Positions 4,545-33,591 of a stretch of DNA of 41,889 nucleotides are shown piece after piece. The DNA comes from Planctomicrobium piriforme. GTDB lineage: Bacteria > Planctomycetota > Planctomycetia > Planctomycetales > Planctomycetaceae. The position numbers and the translations under genes are program-made. The notes under the pieces are model-generated. The model saw only the letters and a program-made list of their open reading frames with translations. It was not told where the DNA came from and did no database searches. The stretch spans positions 1 to 41,889 of the forward strand of contig CAMATH010000074.1 of the NCBI GenBank assembly GCA_945860955.1, written 5' to 3'. Position 1 is the stretch's first letter; the number at the start of each line of letters is the position of its first letter.

Positions 4545-4629
4545 GTGCCGCGAGGTTTTGTGAGGAAGAACGAAAGGCGGGATCGAGATCCCGCACTCCT
4601 TGGAGTGCGGGGCCTTGTCCCCGCCTTTC
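4545..4629. repeat. Palindromic intergenic repeat, copy 1 (complete)
   Basis: The core 4572-4629 folds as a cloverleaf-like palindrome. An outer 10-bp stem (4572-4581 with 4620-4629) encloses a 7-bp hairpin GCGGGAT-CGAG-ATCCCGC, a 7-bp hairpin GCACTCC/GGAGTGC, and a GGGG/CCCC hairpin. Bases 4545-4600 are a direct repeat of 4761-4816, with the same spacing of every element. On the minus strand the element could act as a transcription end (stem followed by CCTTTCGTT). The 490-bp stretch between epsC and the next gene otherwise shows no gene I can support. Confidence 0.8.
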
Positions 4630-4760
4630 CTTCATCCTCCCTTGACTTCCAGCAGGCAATGACCGCATTCTGCCGCAGTTTTCAGGGTTGTCGTTTTCGA
4701 TTGGAATTGGAACACGGAATGTGACCGAATTCAACAAGTGACGGAGGAACTCCTGTGTGC

Positions 4761-4816
4761 CTGCTGCGAGATTCTGTGAGGGATAACGAAAGGCGGGATC
4801 GAGATCCCGCGCTCCA
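4761..4816. repeat. Palindromic intergenic repeat, copy 2 (partial)
   Basis: This copy matches 4545-4600 closely, including a 22-nt identical core holding the GCGGGAT-CGAG-ATCCCGC hairpin (4793-4810). A second GC-rich hairpin follows (4810-4824), but the outer closing arm seen in copy 1 is missing. It lies 14-70 bases past the stop codon of the minus-strand membrane-protein gene, so it probably forms that transcript's 3' end. Confidence 0.75.
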
Positions 4817-4829
4817 GGGGCGCGCCGCT

Positions 4830-6383: not shown

Positions 6384-6712
6384 GCCGGGCCTCCTTCCAG
6401 CCCCAGCACCCCCTTGACACCGTCGGCGAACGTCTGCCATTCGGACCGCCGCGCCGCGAGCGTCTTCCGGCCGACCGCGGTCACCTTGTAGTACTTGCGC
6501 CGACGACCGTCGTGTTCTGTCCAGTACGACTCCAGCAGCTTTTCCCGTTCGAGCCGATGCAGCGCGGGATACAGACTCCCCTCTTTGAGGTCAAACCGCC
6601 CCCCCGATCGGGCGAGGACCGCCTGGGTGATTTCGTAGCCGTAGTTGGGACCGTCGGCGATCACCGCCATGAGCAGCAGTTCGACGGTGCCGTTGAGGAA
6701 GCTCGATTGCAT
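6380..6712 (-). CDS. PadR-family transcriptional regulator
   Basis: A 110-residue winged-helix repressor. The DNA-binding domain is clear: LLLMAVIADGPNYGYEIT, then the recognition region GGRFDLKEGSLYPALHRLEREKLL, then the wing ESYWTEHDGRRRKYYKVTAVGR. It is a short (subfamily-2) PadR with one C-terminal dimerisation helix (LAARRSEWQTFADGVKGVL). Members usually repress their own operon and respond to small ligands or envelope stress. Here the gene overlaps the downstream membrane-protein gene by four bases (ATGA), so the latter is the obvious target. No strong Shine-Dalgarno precedes ATG 6712. A palindrome within a likely promoter about 50 bp upstream is a candidate operator. Confidence 0.93.
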   Translation of the reverse strand: MQSSFLNGTVELLLMAVIADGPNYGYEITQAVLARSGGRFDLKEGSLYPALHRLEREKLLESYWTEHDGRRRKYYKVTAVGRKTLAARRSEWQTFADGVKGVLGLEGGPA

Positions 6713-6761
6713 GGGGACGAGTCAGAACCGTTGAACACAGGAAGCGATACTTTGCGCCTCG

Positions 6762-6799
6762 ATGTATAATACATACCGGCGCATGGTATTGATTGTCAA
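6762..6799 (-). promoter_or_regulatory. Probable promoter and operator of the padR operon
   Basis: On the minus strand TTGACA (6799-6794) is followed after 18 bases by TATGTA (6775-6770), a plausible -35/-10 pair. The -10 overlaps a perfect palindrome ATGTAT-T-ATACAT at 6762-6774. Partly overlapping it is an inverted repeat ATACC-N7-GGTAT (6773-6789). ATGT...ACAT dyads are typical of PadR operators, so autoregulation is likely, but this is inferred from sequence only. Confidence 0.6.
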
Positions 6800-6862
6800 T
6801 GTCGGCCGGTGGATTCCGGCGGCGTATTCGGAGAAAACGGGCTAGGTCGGCTTCATTCTTGG

Positions 6863-6882
6863 AAAAAACCGCACCGCGTGCG
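6863..6882 (-). terminator. Possible weak minus-strand terminator
   Basis: Read on the minus strand, CGCAC-GCG-GTGCG (6882-6870) is followed by G and a run of six T. The stem is only 5 bp. It would stop antisense transcription entering the padR promoter region. Confidence 0.3.
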
Positions 6883-6932
6883 ACCCGAACTCCCACGTGG
6901 TAACATCCCAAAACCCATTGGAGATCGCGCAC

Positions 6933-8210
6933 ATGAATCGTCGTCAGTTTCTGGCGGTCGCGGGAACACTCCCGGCGGCCACCTGGTTTTCCACACAACC
7001 CGCCCCGGCGGCCCAAGTCAAATCTCCCAACGACCGCTGGCGAATCGGCGCGATCGGGCTGCGCTACCAGGGTTCGGTGATCACCCGCGAGGCGCTCGCG
7101 TTTGGAGATGTCGTGGCGCTGTGCGATGTCGACCGGCATGTCCGTGAACAGGCCCGGGCGAGCTTCAACAGCGCCGCCACGATTTACGAGGATTACCACG
7201 ATTTGATCGCCCGGAAGGATCTCGATGTGGTCCTGATTGGCGCTCCCGATCACTGGCACGCGCAGATGGCGATCGACGCCTGTCAGTCGGGCAAAGATGT
7301 GTATGTCGAAAAGCCCCTCACGCTGACGATCGCCGAGGGACAGGCGATCGGGCGCGTCGTGGCCGACACCGGCCGGGTGGTGCAGGTCGGAACCTGGCAG
7401 AGGCACGATGCGCGGTTTCGCCTGGCGGCCGAAATGGTGAAAGCGGGTCGGCTCGGGACGGTGAAGCGGGTCCAGATCGTCCTGGGAAAAAATGAGGTCG
7501 GTGGACCGTTTGAAACATCGACTCCGCCCAAGAATCTCAACTGGAATCGCTGGCTTGGGCCGGCACCGCTCCTCCCCTATACCCCCGAACGCTGTCATTA
7601 CAATTTTCGCTATTGGTTCGAGTACGCGGGGGGCGAAATGACCGACACCGGGGCGCATCACCTCGACATCGCAATGTGGGCCCTGGGGCTGGACCAGACC
7701 GGCCCCGTCGAGATTACCACCGACGCCCAGCTCCCAACCATTGCCAATGGCTACAATGTCCCCATCGCGTTTCAGTCGAAAATGAAATTCGCGAATGGCG
7801 TCGAATTCGAGATTCTTGATCAGGGGCGCAGCGGAATTCTGTTCGAAGGGGATGCCGGGCGGCTCTTTGTGAATCGCGGGACGCTGGCTGGCACGCCGGT
7901 CGACATGCTCAAAGAGACGCCGCTACCGCGGGAAGGACTCGGCCTCTATTCGAACGACAACCTCACCCGACTGGAGAAGTCGGGGAAGATTGAATCGATC
8001 GCCAATCACATGGGGAACTTCTATGACTGCACAGTGAGCCGAAAGACGCCGATCTCTTCGGTCGCGAGCCAGCACCGTGTCGCGACCGCGTGCCACCTGG
8101 GAAACATCGCCGCCCGGCTGGGCCGGACCTTGCGCTGGAACCCGGTCACGGAGCAGTTTGTCGATGATGCCGAGGCCGATGCGATGCGCAGCCGCGAGCC
8201 GCGGAGGTAG
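6933..8210 (+). CDS. Gfo/Idh/MocA-family oxidoreductase, Tat-type signal
   Basis: A 425-residue NAD(P)-dependent sugar/polyol dehydrogenase-like protein. The N-terminus MNRRQFLAVAGTLPAATWF is a twin-arginine-type signal, common for this family in planctomycetes, so it probably acts in the periplasm-like compartment. The Rossmann part follows (WRIGAIGLRYQGSV, then LCDVD), with the conserved VEKPLTLT (the EKP motif) near residue 130. The C-terminal substrate domain contains EYAGGEMTDTGAHHLDIAMWALG, matching the family's catalytic GxHxxD-type region. The nucleotide loop lacks the usual tight GxGxxG spacing, so cofactor may stay bound as in glycosidase-like members; that is inference. ATG 6933 places the RR motif at the start; a longer frame from GTG 6897 adds 12 unrelated residues. 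Confidence 0.9.
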   Translation: MNRRQFLAVAGTLPAATWFSTQPAPAAQVKSPNDRWRIGAIGLRYQGSVITREALAFGDVVALCDVDRHVREQARASFNSAATIYEDYHDLIARKDLDVVLIGAPDHWHAQMAIDACQSGKDVYVEKPLTLTIAEGQAIGRVVADTGRVVQVGTWQRHDARFRLAAEMVKAGRLGTVKRVQIVLGKNEVGGPFETSTPPKNLNWNRWLGPAPLLPYTPERCHYNFRYWFEYAGGEMTDTGAHHLDIAMWALGLDQTGPVEITTDAQLPTIANGYNVPIAFQSKMKFANGVEFEILDQGRSGILFEGDAGRLFVNRGTLAGTPVDMLKETPLPREGLGLYSNDNLTRLEKSGKIESIANHMGNFYDCTVSRKTPISSVASQHRVATACHLGNIAARLGRTLRWNPVTEQFVDDAEADAMRSREPRR

Positions 8211-20659: not shown

Positions 20660-20926
20660 CGCGTCTCTCCGTTGACGTCGTGGCGACCACCGCGATCAGC
20701 CCCTGGCCCCGCGGTCGCCGAGATATTCGCCCGTCCGGCCTGAGCCATCGACGACAGCGTGCCCAACCGACGCCCCCTCCGTTCCGAAGAGGACACAATC
20801 ACAAAACAGTCTGTCATTTCAGGACATGCAACCTCCCGGGGGTGTTCGCGCAATGGGACCAAGCGGTGATTGTAGGCGGATGACGGAGATTGTAAAGCAA
20901 TTCGACGATTCGGAACCGCTCTGTGG
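20660..20926. other. Intergenic region between hss and the retron
   Basis: A 267-bp divergent intergenic stretch. I see no credible gene: open frames here are shadows without family features. It presumably holds the minus-strand hss promoter, which I could not pin down. Confidence 0.5.
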
Positions 20927-20954
20927 TTGACCACGGTCCTACATTCGTTACGAT
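20927..20954 (+). promoter_or_regulatory. Probable promoter of the retron ncRNA-RT transcript
   Basis: TTGACC (20927-20932) and TACGAT (20949-20954) are separated by 16 bases, a good match to a sigma-70-type -35/-10 pair. The predicted start of transcription is near 20961, just a few bases before the a1 repeat at 20965. That placement is what a retron needs, which supports the call. Confidence 0.55.
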
Positions 20955-20960
20955 CGTTCT

Positions 20961-21134
20961 CTGCTGGTCAGCGGGCCGCACAAGCTACTGTCTGGCGCTT
21001 CACCGCGCGAGACGACTGCGGGGATACCCCGTGGGAGATGGATTGTCTGGCTTTCGCGGCGGAAGCAGAGGACGGCGCGACCTTGCACCGCCCCCTGCTT
21101 CGCCACCGGAACGAGTTGCGCGGCCCGCTGGCCA
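20961..21134 (+). ncRNA. Putative retron msr-msd non-coding RNA
   Basis: Structure read directly from sequence. Repeat a1 (20965-20979, TGGTCAGCGGGCCGC) is complementary over all 15 positions, with one G-U pair, to a2 (21120-21134); pairing extends inward three more bases (20981-20983 with 21116-21118) past one mismatch. Immediately inside a1 is AAGCTACTG; the G at 20984 sits in an AGC context, as for the branching guanosine of known retrons. The msr part has two hairpins: 20990-21013 (GTCT/AGAC plus GCGC/GCGC-type inner stem) and 21016-21034 (CGGGG-ATA-CCCCG core). The msd part is one long hairpin, 21058-21104, about 19 bp with a few mismatches. The order a1, branch G, msr hairpins, msd hairpin, a2, RT gene is the standard retron layout. 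Predicted msDNA is about 50-70 nt. Boundaries are estimates. Confidence 0.75.
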
Positions 21135-21159
21135 CTACAAAATCGCGGAGCGAGCGTGG

Positions 21160-22452
21160 ATGGGACTATTCTCCTGGTTGTGGGGCTTGATCACGGGGAA
21201 GTCGGGCGGGTCGGGCTCCCCCCACGGTCCCGGTCAAACAGCTACCCCAACGGGGCGGTCCCGTGTTCGACTGCGCAGGCGACGGTCAACCCCGCGACTC
21301 ACTCCCCGCAACTCCGTCGCCACCGAACCTGTTCGTCCCCCCCAGGCGGCCGTTGTCTCGATTCGTCCCTATCGCTTCGCGCGACGCACGCCCAATCTGC
21401 GAAACTGGTTTGACTTCAGCGGTGACGTCAATCTTCAACGCCTGGGGCGGTTCCAGCTCCCCCCACTCGCGACTTCTGACGATGTCGCCCGTTGGCTGGG
21501 AATTACCACGGGGGAGCTGGCTTGGCTCTCCGGGCGGTTCTGGGAGCCGTACGCCCCCGCGACCATCCAGCAGGCGCACTACCACTTTGTCTGGATCAAC
21601 AAACGGCGTGGCGGCCGACGATTGATTGAAATCCCCAAAGCCCGTCTCCGGGCCGTTCAGGATCGGATTCTGCGTCAGATCCTGGACCGCATCCCGGCAC
21701 ATTCAGCGGCGCACGGTTTCGTCACGGGGCGCTCGAATCGTTCCAATGCCGAACCGCACGTCGAAAAGAATGTCCTGCTCAAGCTCGACCTGAGAAACTT
21801 CTATCCCAGCGTTTCGTTTTCCCGTGTCGTCGCGATCTTTCGCAGTCTGGGGTTCTCGCGTGAAGCCGCCGGCTGGTTTGGTCGGCTGACAACCACCACC
21901 ACTCCCAAGTCGGCACTCACCCCTGGGACCGAAGCCGACCAACGCAATTTTTTCCGCCGCCATTTGCCGCAGGGAGCCCCTACGTCGCCCGCTCTGGCCA
22001 ACCTCTCGGCCTTCGTTCTGGATCTGCGACTGTCCGGACTGGCACGCAGCTTCCACGCGAACTACACCCGCTACGCCGACGACATTACCTTTTCGGGTGA
22101 CGAGCGGTTTCGCCGGAGTATCGCGGTGTTCTTGCCGCTGGTGCGGCAGATCATTTCGCAGGAACGGTTTCAGATCCACCCCGGGAAGTTGCGGGTGGAA
22201 CGGCGGAGTCAACGACAATCGGTCACGGGGGTTGTCGTCAATTCCAGAACAAACATCCGTCGTGACGTCTACGATCGACTCAAGGCGATTTTGACCAATT
22301 GCGTCCGCTTTGGACCGAGTTCACAAAACCGCGACGGACGGCCTGAATTCGCGAGCCATTTGCGGGGCCGAATCGCCCATGTTCAGTCGCTCAACGTGGT
22401 ACGTGGAGAGAAACTTCTGGAGATTTACTCTAGAATCGACTGGAGCCGCTGA
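21160..22452 (+). CDS. Retron-type reverse transcriptase
   Basis: A 430-residue reverse transcriptase. Catalytic motifs: KLDLRNFYPSV (Asp210), LPQGAPTSPALANL (269-282) and YADD (305-308, with Asp307/308). Two features specific to retron RTs are present: NAEPH at 196-200 (the NAxxH region-X motif) and VTG at 355-357 followed by VVVN (region Y). No maturase or HNH domain is present, arguing against a group II intron, and no TR/VR repeat pair suggests a DGR. Residues 1-13 (MGLFSWLWGLITG) are hydrophobic, 14-60 are a basic, Pro/Ser-rich linker, and a conserved-looking helical region (FARRTPNLRNWFDFS) precedes the palm. The overall plan recalls the myxobacterial Mx162-type RT. Start ATG 21160 lies 25 bp after a2; the frame is open further upstream, but a longer protein would overlay the ncRNA. 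No effector gene is adjacent. Confidence 0.93.
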   Translation: MGLFSWLWGLITGKSGGSGSPHGPGQTATPTGRSRVRLRRRRSTPRLTPRNSVATEPVRPPQAAVVSIRPYRFARRTPNLRNWFDFSGDVNLQRLGRFQLPPLATSDDVARWLGITTGELAWLSGRFWEPYAPATIQQAHYHFVWINKRRGGRRLIEIPKARLRAVQDRILRQILDRIPAHSAAHGFVTGRSNRSNAEPHVEKNVLLKLDLRNFYPSVSFSRVVAIFRSLGFSREAAGWFGRLTTTTTPKSALTPGTEADQRNFFRRHLPQGAPTSPALANLSAFVLDLRLSGLARSFHANYTRYADDITFSGDERFRRSIAVFLPLVRQIISQERFQIHPGKLRVERRSQRQSVTGVVVNSRTNIRRDVYDRLKAILTNCVRFGPSSQNRDGRPEFASHLRGRIAHVQSLNVVRGEKLLEIYSRIDWSR

Positions 22453-26627: not shown

Positions 26628-29003
26628 ATGTTGCTGCCAGGGCGGCGTTTGGTCTGTTGCGTCCTCGCCTGTGCCGGAATTCTGGTGCTTCCAGGGCACG
26701 CGACCAGGAATTCCGCAGCTCAAGAGCCGGCGGGGTCTCTCGCCGACTTTTACGGGTTTGGCCGGCTCGAACTGTACAAGATGCAGCATCGTTCCGGGAA
26801 CCTGTTGGCCGCCGACTTCAACCAGGATGGCAAGACCGATCTCATTCTGGTCGACAACAGCAACAGCCGACTCGATTTGCTGCAACAGCAAACAAAAATC
26901 CCCGACGACGCTCCCGCGGCAGGACGCGTCAATACCCTTGTTAGTGATCGCCGCTTCGAACACCGCAAAATTCCCGTCGATCGTGAAGTCGCCTCACTGA
27001 CGTCGGGCGATTTCAACGGCGATGGCCGCAAGGATCTGGCCTGGTTCGCCGTCCCCGATCAACTGACCATCGCGTTCCAAAACGAAAAGGCCGATTTCAC
27101 GTCGCGCAAACGACTGCGCCTTCCGGATGTCCAGGCCGCTCAGTGGGTGCTGGCTGCGGGTGATCTCAATCACGATGGTCGGGACGACCTGGTCGTACTC
27201 GGCAAACACGATACTTACCTGATTTACCAGCAGGCAGGTGGTGAGCTTTCCAGCCCGGTTCGGCTGATGAATACGACCGAAAATCTGGGGCTGGTTCAGA
27301 TCGCCGATCTCGACGGCGACGGAAAAAACGACCTGTCCTACCTGAATTCCAGTGATCCCGACCGACCGTTTTGCGTGCGGCTGCAAGGGCCAGACGGTCG
27401 GATGGGGCCCGAATTGCGATGCGAACTCCCCAAGACCCGGGGTGTCACTCTGGCGAACATCGACGGCCAACCTGGAAGCGAAGTTCTGGCGATTGAATCA
27501 CAAACCGGGCGGGTCAAAGTCCACCAGTTGCAACAGTCGGTCGCGCAACCTGGCGAACTGGCGGGGCAGTTGATTCAGTACGGCTTTGGACAGCAGGGGA
27601 AGAATCGCGATCTCGCGACCGGGGATCTCAATCAGGATGGACTGATCGATGTGGTTGTGAGCGATCCCGAATCGGCACAGATGATTGTCTTTCTTCAACG
27701 ACCGGGAGCGGGGCTGGATCTGGGGAACACGTACCCCGGGCTGGTTGGGGCGGAACAGGTTCGCGTCGGTGATGTCGATGGAGACGGGCAGAATGAGGTG
27801 GTCGTCCTCAGCCCCAAAGAGAAGACCATTGGAATCTGCCGACTTGAAGCGGGTCGACTGACGTTTCCCAAGGCATTGCCCACCGAGCGTGAACCGGTGG
27901 CTCTCGACCTCGCCGACTTGAGCGGGGATGGCCGACCGGAAGTGGTGTATCTGTCGCGGGAACGGTCGGCACAATCGTCGAAGTACTTTCTGCAGGCGGT
28001 GGGGCGCGGGGCGAATGCCGACTATGTGCCGCACAAGTTTGGAGAACAGGACTCGATCGCGGTCACCCTGAAGACCTCCCCCGATCGACTCGTCGCCTTG
28101 GATGCCAACCAGGATGGTCGCCCCGACTTTCTCGTCTTCGCGGGGACCGATCGGGCTCCGGTGTTTCTGGCGACGGCTGCCAATGGTGTGCCGGCGGAGG
28201 TCGCGGCAGGTGAAGGCGGTTTCGGCCTGGGGAACGTGGCACCGGGAGGTCTGTTTCTCGGCAAACTGGAACAGCCGGTTGTGCTTGTGGCGCAAAGCAA
28301 TTTCGCCCGCAATGTGATTGTCAACGAGAAAAACCAGTGGCAGGTGGTCGACCAGTACAACGCGGCGGAGGCGGGGGCCAAGATCGTCGGGGCTGCGACG
28401 GTTGACCTGGATGGCGAGCCGGGACGCGAGATTGTCCTGATCGACAGCGGCGTCCGTAAACTGCGGATCCTGCGACGGGAGGGGGCCGTCTTCCGCGCGT
28501 GGCGCGAGGTCGATATCGGGGCGTTTCCGTACAAGTCGGCGCATGTCGCCGACCTGAATGGCGACATGCGGGATGACCTGTTGCTGTTCGGGGAAGGGAA
28601 ATTCGGCGTCTTGTATGCGGGACGTTCCGACCCTCGCTTGAATACCATTGCCAGTTATGAATCGAAGTTGGACAAGGTTCACTTCAACGATTTGGCGGCT
28701 GGCGACCTGAATGGAGACGGACTCGCCGATCTGGCGGTGGTGGATACGCAGTCGCAAATCGTCGACATTCTCAACTACGACCCAACTGCCGGCTTAAGGC
28801 ACGCCGTGCATTTCAAAGTGTTTGAAGCGAAGAGTCTGGCGGGGGAGGAGCGGACGGGGAGCGAGCCGCGCGAAGTTCTGATCTCCGACGTGACGGGCGA
28901 TGGGCTGGCAGATCTGGTTTTATTGAGTCAGGATCGCGTACTCGTGTACCCGCAAGATTCGGCACCCGCGGTTCCCGCGGCGGGAGCTGCGGACAAGAAA
29001 TAG
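26628..29003 (+). CDS. Exported FG-GAP/VCBS-repeat protein
   Basis: A 791-residue exported beta-propeller-like protein. Signal peptide at 1-30 (LVCCVLACAGILVLPGHA). The rest is a series of FG-GAP/VCBS repeats, each with a calcium-binding DxNxDGxxDL loop: DFNQDGKTDL, DFNGDGRKDL, DLNHDGRDDL, DLDGDGKNDL, DLNQDGLIDV, DVDGDGQNEV, DLSGDGRPEV, DANQDGRPDF, DLNGDMRDDL, DLNGDGLADL and DVTGDGLADL. At least ten repeats are evident. Such proteins sit on the cell surface or in the periplasm and bind proteins or polysaccharides; the ligand is unknown. It precedes the GMPG-repeat protein by 255 bp on the same strand. Confidence 0.9.
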   Translation: MLLPGRRLVCCVLACAGILVLPGHATRNSAAQEPAGSLADFYGFGRLELYKMQHRSGNLLAADFNQDGKTDLILVDNSNSRLDLLQQQTKIPDDAPAAGRVNTLVSDRRFEHRKIPVDREVASLTSGDFNGDGRKDLAWFAVPDQLTIAFQNEKADFTSRKRLRLPDVQAAQWVLAAGDLNHDGRDDLVVLGKHDTYLIYQQAGGELSSPVRLMNTTENLGLVQIADLDGDGKNDLSYLNSSDPDRPFCVRLQGPDGRMGPELRCELPKTRGVTLANIDGQPGSEVLAIESQTGRVKVHQLQQSVAQPGELAGQLIQYGFGQQGKNRDLATGDLNQDGLIDVVVSDPESAQMIVFLQRPGAGLDLGNTYPGLVGAEQVRVGDVDGDGQNEVVVLSPKEKTIGICRLEAGRLTFPKALPTEREPVALDLADLSGDGRPEVVYLSRERSAQSSKYFLQAVGRGANADYVPHKFGEQDSIAVTLKTSPDRLVALDANQDGRPDFLVFAGTDRAPVFLATAANGVPAEVAAGEGGFGLGNVAPGGLFLGKLEQPVVLVAQSNFARNVIVNEKNQWQVVDQYNAAEAGAKIVGAATVDLDGEPGREIVLIDSGVRKLRILRREGAVFRAWREVDIGAFPYKSAHVADLNGDMRDDLLLFGEGKFGVLYAGRSDPRLNTIASYESKLDKVHFNDLAAGDLNGDGLADLAVVDTQSQIVDILNYDPTAGLRHAVHFKVFEAKSLAGEERTGSEPREVLISDVTGDGLADLVLLSQDRVLVYPQDSAPAVPAAGAADKK

Positions 29004-30626: not shown

Positions 30627-31334
30627 CAAGACAATCGCAGGATCCCTTCCTCGTGAGTCCCGAAACATTTTCTCATGGCGGTGACTTTCCCAAACGTGAG
30701 TCACTACACAGCCAGGCGCCGCCAGCGAAAGGCCTGACGGAGCGGCCAGAAACAAACCCGCGTCCGCGACAGAGAATGCAATTTTAGACCAATTCCAACC
30801 AGCCGGACGAACAATTTGTTTGGCTTCCGTCAGTGCTTCGATTTTGGCGGGCATCTCTCGATCCCCGGTCTCGTAGACCGCGCGCAATTGCAACGCGAGT
30901 TCATTTTGGAGGATCCACAGCGCGGCTCCAAATCTGGCTCGTGTCGCCAAATCCTTGAAAAAGCCATCGGCGAGAAAGTGTGCGTAAGCTGGCCAGGAAA
31001 AAGCCATTCGCTTCGATGCAGTGAGCGGCATTCCAACTTCGGTGCGAACCGGAGAAATCGCGCGTGTGGGTGAACCAAAGAGTGCTTCGCCGATCGCAGC
31101 GACGACTGTTTTGTGTTCAATCTACTGTTTCGCGATGTACTCCGACGGTGGCTGTTGAATCCGAATGTCGAGTTCTCGTGTTCAACCGGAAGTATTCCAC
31201 CGGCTTCGCTCTCAATTTCCCAAAAAATCAGATAAAAAGACCTTGTTGTCCAGATGTGGGCTCGGTACGATCACGCGTATGGCGGTTGGCTCCCTTTCAC
31301 CGGTGCCGACAGCGACTCGTCCGGACCCCTATTT
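30627..31334. other. Gene-poor stretch upstream of hcp
   Basis: About 700 bases with no gene I can support. A minus-strand frame (30546-31031) encodes a moderately protein-like segment (FGAALWILQNELALQLRAVY) but would run through the terminator at 30585-30626 and has no recognisable domain, so it may be a remnant. The right part (31195-31240) is AT-rich and probably carries the hcp promoter; I saw no clear FNR/DNR, HcpR or NsrR-type operator. Confidence 0.45.
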
Positions 31335-31347
31335 CAGGAGCGTTTCC

Positions 31348-32634
31348 ATGTTCTGTAATCAGTGCGAGCAGACGGCCCATGGCACCGGCTGCACCGACCT
31401 CGGAGTGTGCGGAAAAGACCCCGATGTGCAGTCGCTTCAAGAGACCTTGTTGTACGGATTGAAAGGGATGGCGGCGTATGCCAACCATGCCCGCCGGCTG
31501 GGAAAGACCGACGACAACGTCAGCGCGTTTATCGAAGAGGCGCTGTTCGCCACCATGACAAACGTCAATTTCGACATGGAAAGCCTGTTCGAAATGGTGC
31601 TGGAATGCGGTCGGCAAAACCTGCGGGTGATGCAACTGCTGGATGAGGGACACACCGAAAAACTCGGCTCCCCCACCCCCACCACTGTGTACGAAGGCAC
31701 CAAGGCGGGGCCAGGAATCCTGGTGACGGGCCACGACCTGGTCGACCTCGCTGACCTGCTCGAACAAACCCAGGGAACCGGCGTCAACGTCTAAACGCAT
31801 GGGGAAATGCTCCCGGCTCACAGCTATCCCAAGCTGCGGGCGTACTCGCACCTCGCCGGTCATTACGGCGGTCCCTGGCAAAACCAGCAGTTTGAATTCC
31901 CCCTGTTCACCGGACCGATTGTCGCCACGACCAACTGCGTGCTGATTCCGTGGGAGTCATACAAGGACCGCCTGTTCACGACGCGCGTGACAGCGGTTCC
32001 CGGAGGCACGCGGTTGAAGACCAGCGATTTTTCGTCCGTGATCGAGATGGCGAAGACCTCTCCCCCGTTGGTCGAGCGCAAGGTTCGCGAATCGACGATT
32101 GGCTTCAGTCACAACGTGATTCTGGGAATCGCCGAGAAGGTCGTAAGCGCGGTGAAGTCGGGCGAGATTCGTCACTTCTATCTGATTGGTGGCTGTGATG
32201 GGGCCGAAGTCGGCCGCAACTACTTCACGAAAGCCGCCGCCGCCGCTCCGAATGAATCGTTGATTCTCACTCTGGGTTGCGGGAAGTACCGGATCCGCAA
32301 CCACGACTACGGAACGGTCGCCGGCCTCCCCCGATTGCTCGACATGGGTCAGTGCAACGACGCGTATGGCGCGATTCAGGTGGCGGTTGGATTGGCGAAG
32401 GCGTTTGGTTGCGGCGTCAACGATTTGCCGTTGACAATCATTCTCTCCTGGTTCGAGCAGAAGGCGGTCGCGGTCCTCTTGACACTGCTGGCGCTCGGCG
32501 TGAAGGGGATTCGGGTCGGGCCGGTTGCTCCCGCCTTTATCACGCCGAACGTGTTCAAGGTGCTGCAAGAGAAATTCGACCTCAAGCTGACGGAAGCGGA
32601 ACCCCCCGCCGAGCTGTTTCAGTTGGCGTCGTAA
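31348..32634 (+). pseudogene. hcp: Hybrid cluster protein (hydroxylamine reductase) with in-frame stop
   Basis: The 428-codon frame from ATG 31348 (CAGGAG 7 bases upstream) is a compact, class-III-length hybrid cluster protein that lacks the roughly 100-residue helical insert of longer forms. Family role: reduction of NO/hydroxylamine using a [4Fe-4S] and a 4Fe-2S-2O cluster. Proximal cluster cysteines C3, C6, C15 and C21 are present, and the hybrid-cluster ligands are all encoded: His in GHDLVDL, Glu in THGEMLP, Cys in TTNCV, GGCDG, GCGKYR and QCND, and Glu in WFEQKA. However codon 149, which normally encodes Tyr in the conserved NVYTHGE, is TAA (31792-31794). The rest of the frame is intact to 32634. 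The truncated product would lose nearly all hybrid-cluster ligands. Either a recent nonsense mutation or a sequencing error. Confidence 0.88.
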
Positions 32635-32649
32635 GTGTTCGAAGCGTTC

Positions 32650-32679
32650 GCACGGCGATTGTCGCAACAATCGCCGTGC
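32650..32679 (+). other. Perfect 13-bp hairpin between hcp and the globin gene
   Basis: GCACGGCGATTGT (32650-32662) and ACAATCGCCGTGC (32667-32679) form a perfect 13-bp stem with a CGCA loop, 15 bases after the hcp stop and 66 bases before the globin ATG. No T-run follows. It may end or stabilise the hcp transcript, or modulate the downstream gene. Confidence 0.7.
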
Positions 32680-32745
32680 GGTTCCCGCCTGTTTGGTATC
32701 CTCTGGATCCCGTTCTCCATTGCTCCCAAACCGTTGTCAGATCTT

Positions 32746-33324
32746 ATGAAGTCCATCGACGAAGCCCGATTGGAAAGTGACCTGGGCTACCGCTACGAAT
32801 ATCTGTGTGAATTCCTGGATTTCACTGCGGCCGATGTCGCCCGGATTCATGGCGCCGCACCGTATCTGGGGCCAATGATCCCCGAGATGGTGGAAAAGAC
32901 GTACAAAAAGTTGTTGTCGTATGATGCGACCGCGCGGCATTTTCTGCCTCGGCAGGCCGGCTTCAATGGCACCACCCCCGCGAATCTAGCCGAGCTATCA
33001 CTCGACAATCCTCAAATTCAATTCCGCCGGGAACATTTGCTGCGGTATCTGATGCAGCTCCTGGGACGGGCGTACGACGGCAAAATGGCGTTGTATCTCG
33101 ATATGGTGGGCAAGATGCACACACCAGCGGCGGGGAACAAAGAGATCGACGTGCCGCTGGTTCAGATGAACGCCCTGATGGGGGTCTTGTCCGATTGCTT
33201 GACGGAAGTGATCCTGGATTTGCCCCTCGAAGCGGCGAATCGCAACCAGACGGTCCGGTCGTTCAATAAATTGCTGTGGATTCAAAACGACCTGGTGAAT
33301 CGACACTACGCCCGGCAAGCGTAG
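32746..33324 (+). CDS. Protoglobin-family heme protein
   Basis: A 192-residue single-domain protoglobin. It begins with the extra N-terminal helices typical of the family (DLGYRYEYLCEFLDFTAADV), then PYLGPMIPEMVEKTYKKLLSYDATARHFLPR. The conserved IQFRREHLLRYLMQLLGRAYDGKMALYLDMVGKMH follows in which His125 (KMHT) is the likely proximal heme ligand, then PLVQMNALMGVLSDCLTEVILD. Protoglobins bind O2, CO and NO; stand-alone forms may scavenge or sense these gases. No output domain (GGDEF, methyl-accepting or kinase) is attached. ATG 32746 gives the family start; a longer frame from 32635 adds 37 residues with no homology. Its position directly after hcp suggests a shared role in nitric oxide handling. 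Confidence 0.88.
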   Translation: MKSIDEARLESDLGYRYEYLCEFLDFTAADVARIHGAAPYLGPMIPEMVEKTYKKLLSYDATARHFLPRQAGFNGTTPANLAELSLDNPQIQFRREHLLRYLMQLLGRAYDGKMALYLDMVGKMHTPAAGNKEIDVPLVQMNALMGVLSDCLTEVILDLPLEAANRNQTVRSFNKLLWIQNDLVNRHYARQA

Positions 33325-33591
33325 ACAACGCTCTCGGGAACGGCGGGACGCGCGACACTGTGAGTTCCCAGGCTCTTCGTGGGATACCCTCGCATCAGAA
33401 TGTGGCGTCGAACTCCCACAAAGCGATCGAGGGGGCCTTTGAACTCGGCCCCGAGGCGATCTGTTTTCCTGCCAAAATCTCAAAAAACTCAATCTCGCGC
33501 GTGAGATACCAACGGCAACCGGGGATAATCCTCTCAGTCGGTTCAATTCGCGGTTCCCTGAAACCGGTGGACCGCGTCCGCCCGGTAAGCC

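Follow-up and report, generated by a model that had tools for sequence, protein, structure and literature searches.

The hcp gene of Planctomicrobium piriforme, which encodes a class III hybrid cluster protein (Hcp), an iron-sulfur enzyme, is interrupted at codon 149 by a single in-frame TAA. We consider it probable that this is a real and very recent nonsense mutation, which either became fixed in the strain that was sequenced or is carried by most of the sampled population. The gene lies on the plus strand at positions 31348-32634 of the window, by which we mean the whole analysed stretch of 41,889 nucleotides, contig 74 of a genome of 8.4 Mb in 282 contigs that is 98.88% complete. It starts with the ATG at 31348, ends with a terminator TAA at 32632-32634 and comprises 428 codons plus the terminator.

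With an X placed at the stop, the translated protein scored 427 bits against PF03063 (Pfam Prismane, cut-off 27), 652 bits against NF003658 (NCBIfam hydroxylamine reductase, cut-off 367) and 603 bits against TIGR01703 (cut-off 361). The closest hcp loci in the genome collection are from planctomycete MAGs, with best-segment identities of up to 83%. A phmmer search matched residues 1-413 to residues 65-477 of the Methanothermobacter marburgensis HCP (PDB 7e0l), and the equal lengths suggest an alignment without gap. Passages of PMC10502027 describe class III HCPs as lacking about 100 residues of the middle region of classes I and II. The window protein agrees with class III in its length of 428 aa, in a Pfam match that jumps from profile position 74 to 159, in the equal-length match to 7e0l and in its retained ligands. 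It has no N-terminal rubredoxin domain, unlike the M. marburgensis HCP; this domain has been found only in Methanobacteriales, again according to passages of PMC10502027. The stop at codon 149 is the other difference from the M. marburgensis gene.

The hybrid cluster of the M. marburgensis protein is held by His193, Glu217, Cys261, Cys347 (persulfide), Cys375, Cys400 and Glu434, as given in a passage of PMC10502027. A constant offset of 64 places these ligands at His129, Glu153, Cys197, Cys283, Cys311, Cys336 and Glu370 of the window Hcp, where all seven residues match, and the set required for the cluster (one His, two Glu and four Cys) is present. We compared the gene with 82 relatives, namely 80 loci from the genome collection and the congeners G001 and G002. 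Cys3, 6, 15 and 21 as well as Glu153, Cys197, 283, 311, 336 and Glu370 are identical in all 82, in a tabulation that covered all ligands except His129. Recent work on bacteria suggests that HCP functions as a nitric oxide reductase (PMC10210160, abstract), and we infer NO or related nitrogen oxides to be the substrates of Hcp in P. piriforme. Passages of the same paper state that no counterpart of the HCP reductase is known for classes I and III, and what class III does and where its electrons come from is described as open.

The premature TAA occupies 31792-31794 on the plus strand, in a local frame that reads GTC (31789-31791), TAA, ACG CAT GGG GAA and ATG (31807-31809). In the frame, 148 open codons precede the stop and 279 follow it, with homology on both sides, and column 149 is Tyr in all 82 relatives (49 TAC, 33 TAT); the TAA is therefore not a chance occurrence. 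None of the relatives has an in-frame stop in its matched stretch. Among 139 near-uniform alignment columns (at least 95%), the window sequence departs at only three, 149, 254 and 428. The departure at column 254 is a Ser common to the window and its congener, and column 428 is the last residue, where 79 of the 82 rows are gapped. Since the alignment of the window and congener genes is free of gaps over all 428 codons, the change is a substitution and not an indel.

The sequence-only reading had described one in-frame TAA in an otherwise intact hcp, at a codon where a conserved Tyr was to be expected and with the other ligands and the downstream frame undamaged, and had named a substitution instead of an indel as the point to check. 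These results bear it out on each of those points. It was inaccurate in placing the ligand Glu three codons after the stop, since Glu is codon 153, four positions after codon 149 with three codons between them.

Within the genus, hcp was found in three of four genomes; in the fourth, G003, which is 83% complete, both hcp and the globin are missing. The hcp gene of the congener G001 is 98% identical to the window gene and open throughout. Matches occur in 40 of 120 genomes of the family and in 71 of 397 genomes of the class, own genome counted in both cases; the class count includes a few longer proteins that were matched in two stretches. The only in-frame stop among the family matches, and among the best matches of the 71 class genomes, is that of the window. 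Signs of decay were seen elsewhere: G407 carries a short second piece with one TGA, the hcp of G336 lies in two frames and G162 has a partial second match. This decay, together with the patchy distribution, indicates that loss of hcp is tolerated in the group, while the rarity of stops in best matches indicates that the gene is kept intact where it is present.

The comparison with G001 also gives an indication of the age of the stop. In total, 84 of 429 codons differ between the two genes, of which 73 are synonymous sense differences, nine are missense, one is the nonsense change and one is the terminator. All nine missense differences are at variable positions, and at each of them the window residue is found among relatives; the four N-terminal cysteines and the tabulated ligands are unchanged. 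We fitted a codon model to seven sequences with a topology set by hand and the row of L151 as outgroup (among the 27 family loci, the frame finder missed L150, L153 and L166). Omega was estimated at 0.032 overall and at 0.039 on the window branch, with low power: fixing the window branch at 1 cost only 2.26 log units. When both congener branches were set free, omega was 0.131 for the window and 0.006 for G001; the fit improved by 1.95 log units, which is not significant (2 degrees of freedom). When base changes were polarised by G002, five of those in nonsynonymous codons fell on the window branch and three on that of G001, with three ambiguous, and of those in synonymous codons 23 fell on the window branch and 34 on that of G001, with 17 ambiguous.

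The slight missense excess on the window branch is what an old hcp pseudogene, drifting neutrally, might leave behind. Against such a history, which we regard as very improbable, stand the low omega of the window branch, the retention of near-uniform residues and the lack of a second stop or a frameshift. Further disabling mutations, which according to the earlier reading would mark an old pseudogene, were looked for in the hcp frame and none was found. In codon comparisons of low power, there is no clear sign of neutral drift on the window branch, and by a rough profile about a third of the branch could be neutral. Because the hcp frame holds no second lesion, the stop is most likely recent or else a base error.

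Pseudogenes with a single nonsense mutation are a common class in bacterial genomes. Like them, the window hcp combines one in-frame stop with an intact remainder and an intact congener orthologue, and we saw no difference from this class. A single disabling change, a constrained gene and an intact orthologue, which characterise a recent nonsense pseudogene, were all found here. Our literature search found no report combining hydroxylamine reductase, pseudogene and premature stop codon.

An error of sequencing or assembly at one base, with an intact hcp in the organism, would produce much the same picture: an error in a draft of 282 contigs would be expected to show up as one substitution in a gene that is otherwise under constraint, and the stop has no counterpart in the best matches of the other class genomes. 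We consider such an error unlikely, albeit by far the most serious alternative, and in our judgement a real mutation is about three times as likely. The surrounding sequence speaks for good quality, since hcp shows no frame lesion and, apart from the stop, deviates from near-uniform residue columns nowhere on its own account, and the adjoining globin departs from none of 60 such columns (44 sequences). A tblastn search of 29 window ORFs against G001 loci matched 18 at more than 80% identity and found in-frame stops of G001 only under the window ORF 6591-7661 (minus strand), which lies opposite another ORF. In alignments of ten window/G001 DNA stretches, several of them aligned only in part, the unbalanced differences were an insertion of 1 base, a deletion of 32 bases and an N run in G001. 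We read the window as the probably intact side in these ten stretches, with no window frame lesion apparent in them.

Other stops in the genome were surveyed as well. Single in-frame stops were found in 4 of 48 rows of the SBP_bac_10 family in the window's genome, two of which are full-length matches, and in none of 27 sulfatase rows. The two full-length SBP_bac_10 copies (L126 and L127, on contigs 49 and 39 of G000) have one in-frame TGA each inside the domain. A codon-usage scan for split genes over 390,078 bases including the window, in which 176 coding ORF ends were recognised, gave four candidates, of which hcp alone was accepted. The candidates at hisI-hisG and at the end of hisG were read as ordinary gene boundaries, and a candidate on the minus strand inside the gene at 26628-29003 was read as antisense.

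The TAA could also be read through or suppressed so that full-length Hcp is made, and the conserved downstream frame of hcp would agree with this. ARAGORN, run on stretches around 48 Rfam tRNA places, predicted 47 tRNAs, among them one Tyr tRNA (gta) and none with the anticodon TTA. This list is incomplete, with 150 of 217 candidates scored and a Leu tRNA with the anticodon TAA likewise missing, which leaves some room for a suppressor. On the other side, TAA terminates 23 of 152 long open segments as well as hcp itself, and codon 149 is not a stop in any of the relatives examined. Suppression is in our view very improbable, and reassignment or recoding of TAA is disfavoured. The sequence-only reading had offered recency, error and suppression side by side; the first two are upheld by the lack of a second lesion, the retained ligands, an omega that is not significantly raised and the intact congener gene, while suppression is opposed by the tRNAs and by the use of TAA as a terminator. 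A selenocysteine tRNA was predicted in the window's genome (L125, G000 contig 150), and the genome may thus recode some TGA codons; this bears on the SBP_bac_10 cases with TGA and not on the TAA of hcp. No tRNA and no Rfam family was found in the window itself.

Under a real nonsense mutation, hcp would have been under purifying selection until the stop arose, and translation would now end after residue 148, just before the ligand Glu153. His129 (31732-31734, plus strand, computed from the ATG at 31348), which corresponds by position to His193 of the M. marburgensis HCP, lies upstream of the stop. Glu153 (31804-31806, plus strand), the counterpart of Glu217 by position, comes after the stop but ahead of the next start codon. 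That codon, an in-frame ATG 12 bases past the stop, opens a possible re-initiation frame of 275 aa (31807-32634, plus strand) without His129 and Glu153. One might therefore imagine a two-piece Hcp whose fragments assemble into a working enzyme. Of the two fragments, one would contain His129 and the other five ligands, so that His129 is parted from the rest, and Glu153, conserved in all 82 relatives, would be in neither. Given also that none of the 82 relatives is split at this place, we regard a functional two-piece enzyme as scarcely conceivable. The loss of Glu153 from both fragments implies that a split product should be dead, and this anatomy supports the earlier expectation that it would be inactive. 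Neither did we find a second Prismane gene in the genome, where the sole one consists of the two pieces around the stop. With its ligands split or lost and no second gene, the cell would be hcp-null if the base is real and would have lost its sole recognised hybrid cluster protein. We infer that the base at codon 149 is real and that the Hcp product is inactive.

The gene following hcp encodes a single-domain protoglobin, a frequent neighbour of hcp in the family; it is intact, 192 aa long and located at 32746-33324 on the plus strand. In the window, the globin ORF (32635-33324) shares the frame of hcp. An in-frame fusion by read-through of both TAA codons was considered and rejected, since the congener spacer differs by one base, and we take the shared frame to be a coincidence. 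In the family sample, 39 of the 40 hcp genomes carry the globin (the exception being G100), compared to 29 of 80 genomes without hcp (Fisher p ~8e-12, not corrected for kinship). The two genes lie within 1 kb of each other in 36 of the 40 family hcp genomes, in 32 of them in tandem with the globin downstream and in four divergently (pair loci: window 31348-33324, L084, L085 and L146-L172). Among loci of the collection, and within the flanks fetched, the globin was found in 15 of 17 of L003-L019 and in none of the 63 of L020-L082. Two of 77 protoglobin rows have one in-frame TGA each (G088 contig 39:20454-21023 and G034 contig 133:29352-29852).

Homology to G001 around the pair spans approximately 31198-33342, and the genes that surround the pair differ among the three congeners, with Met-tRNA synthetase, OmpH-like and permease genes nearby in G001 and NHL-repeat and Tad-like genes in G002. 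The spacer between the two genes contains a long hairpin (32649-32680, plus strand) that the congener shares. When 21 tandem hcp-globin spacers were folded, eight had z <= -3 against simple shuffles and several had no hairpin. A few ended in T runs, so that hcp and globin may be separate transcripts in some genomes.

It is possible, and we propose it tentatively, that in planctomycetes the genes for class III Hcp and the single-domain protoglobin belong together as a conserved pair dealing with nitrogen oxides, and that the window comes from a natural hcp-null in which the globin has been retained. In such a unit the globin would perhaps bind or deliver NO, or serve Hcp in place of the class II Hcr reductase. 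Against a strict unit, 29 genomes have the globin but no hcp, and in three the two genes are not neighbours. A literature search, judged from titles, abstract openings and passages, found no report of the hcp-protoglobin pairing.

Two further elements were observed in the window. At 4547-4658 there is a palindromic element, about 110 bases long and dispersed, that is MITE- or REP-like (inverted repeats 4562-4639 and 4778-4819), into which most of 69 matches fall, on both strands and to many G001 contigs. At 20923-22452 a reverse transcriptase of 509 aa is encoded that is closest to retron-type RT models (PADLOC RT_other, RT_outgroup and RT_XIII) and stays below the NCBIfam cut-offs; no Rfam match accompanies it in the window.

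The stop in hcp is in itself an ordinary event, another newly arisen null allele, or a base error, in a gene with a patchy distribution across the family. An hcp-null that retains the globin would matter a little more, because the pairing is strong in the sample (36 of 40 adjacent) and because passages of PMC10210160 describe both the function of class III Hcp and its electron donor as open. If true, a natural hcp-null keeping its protoglobin would let the roles of Hcp and globin be told apart.
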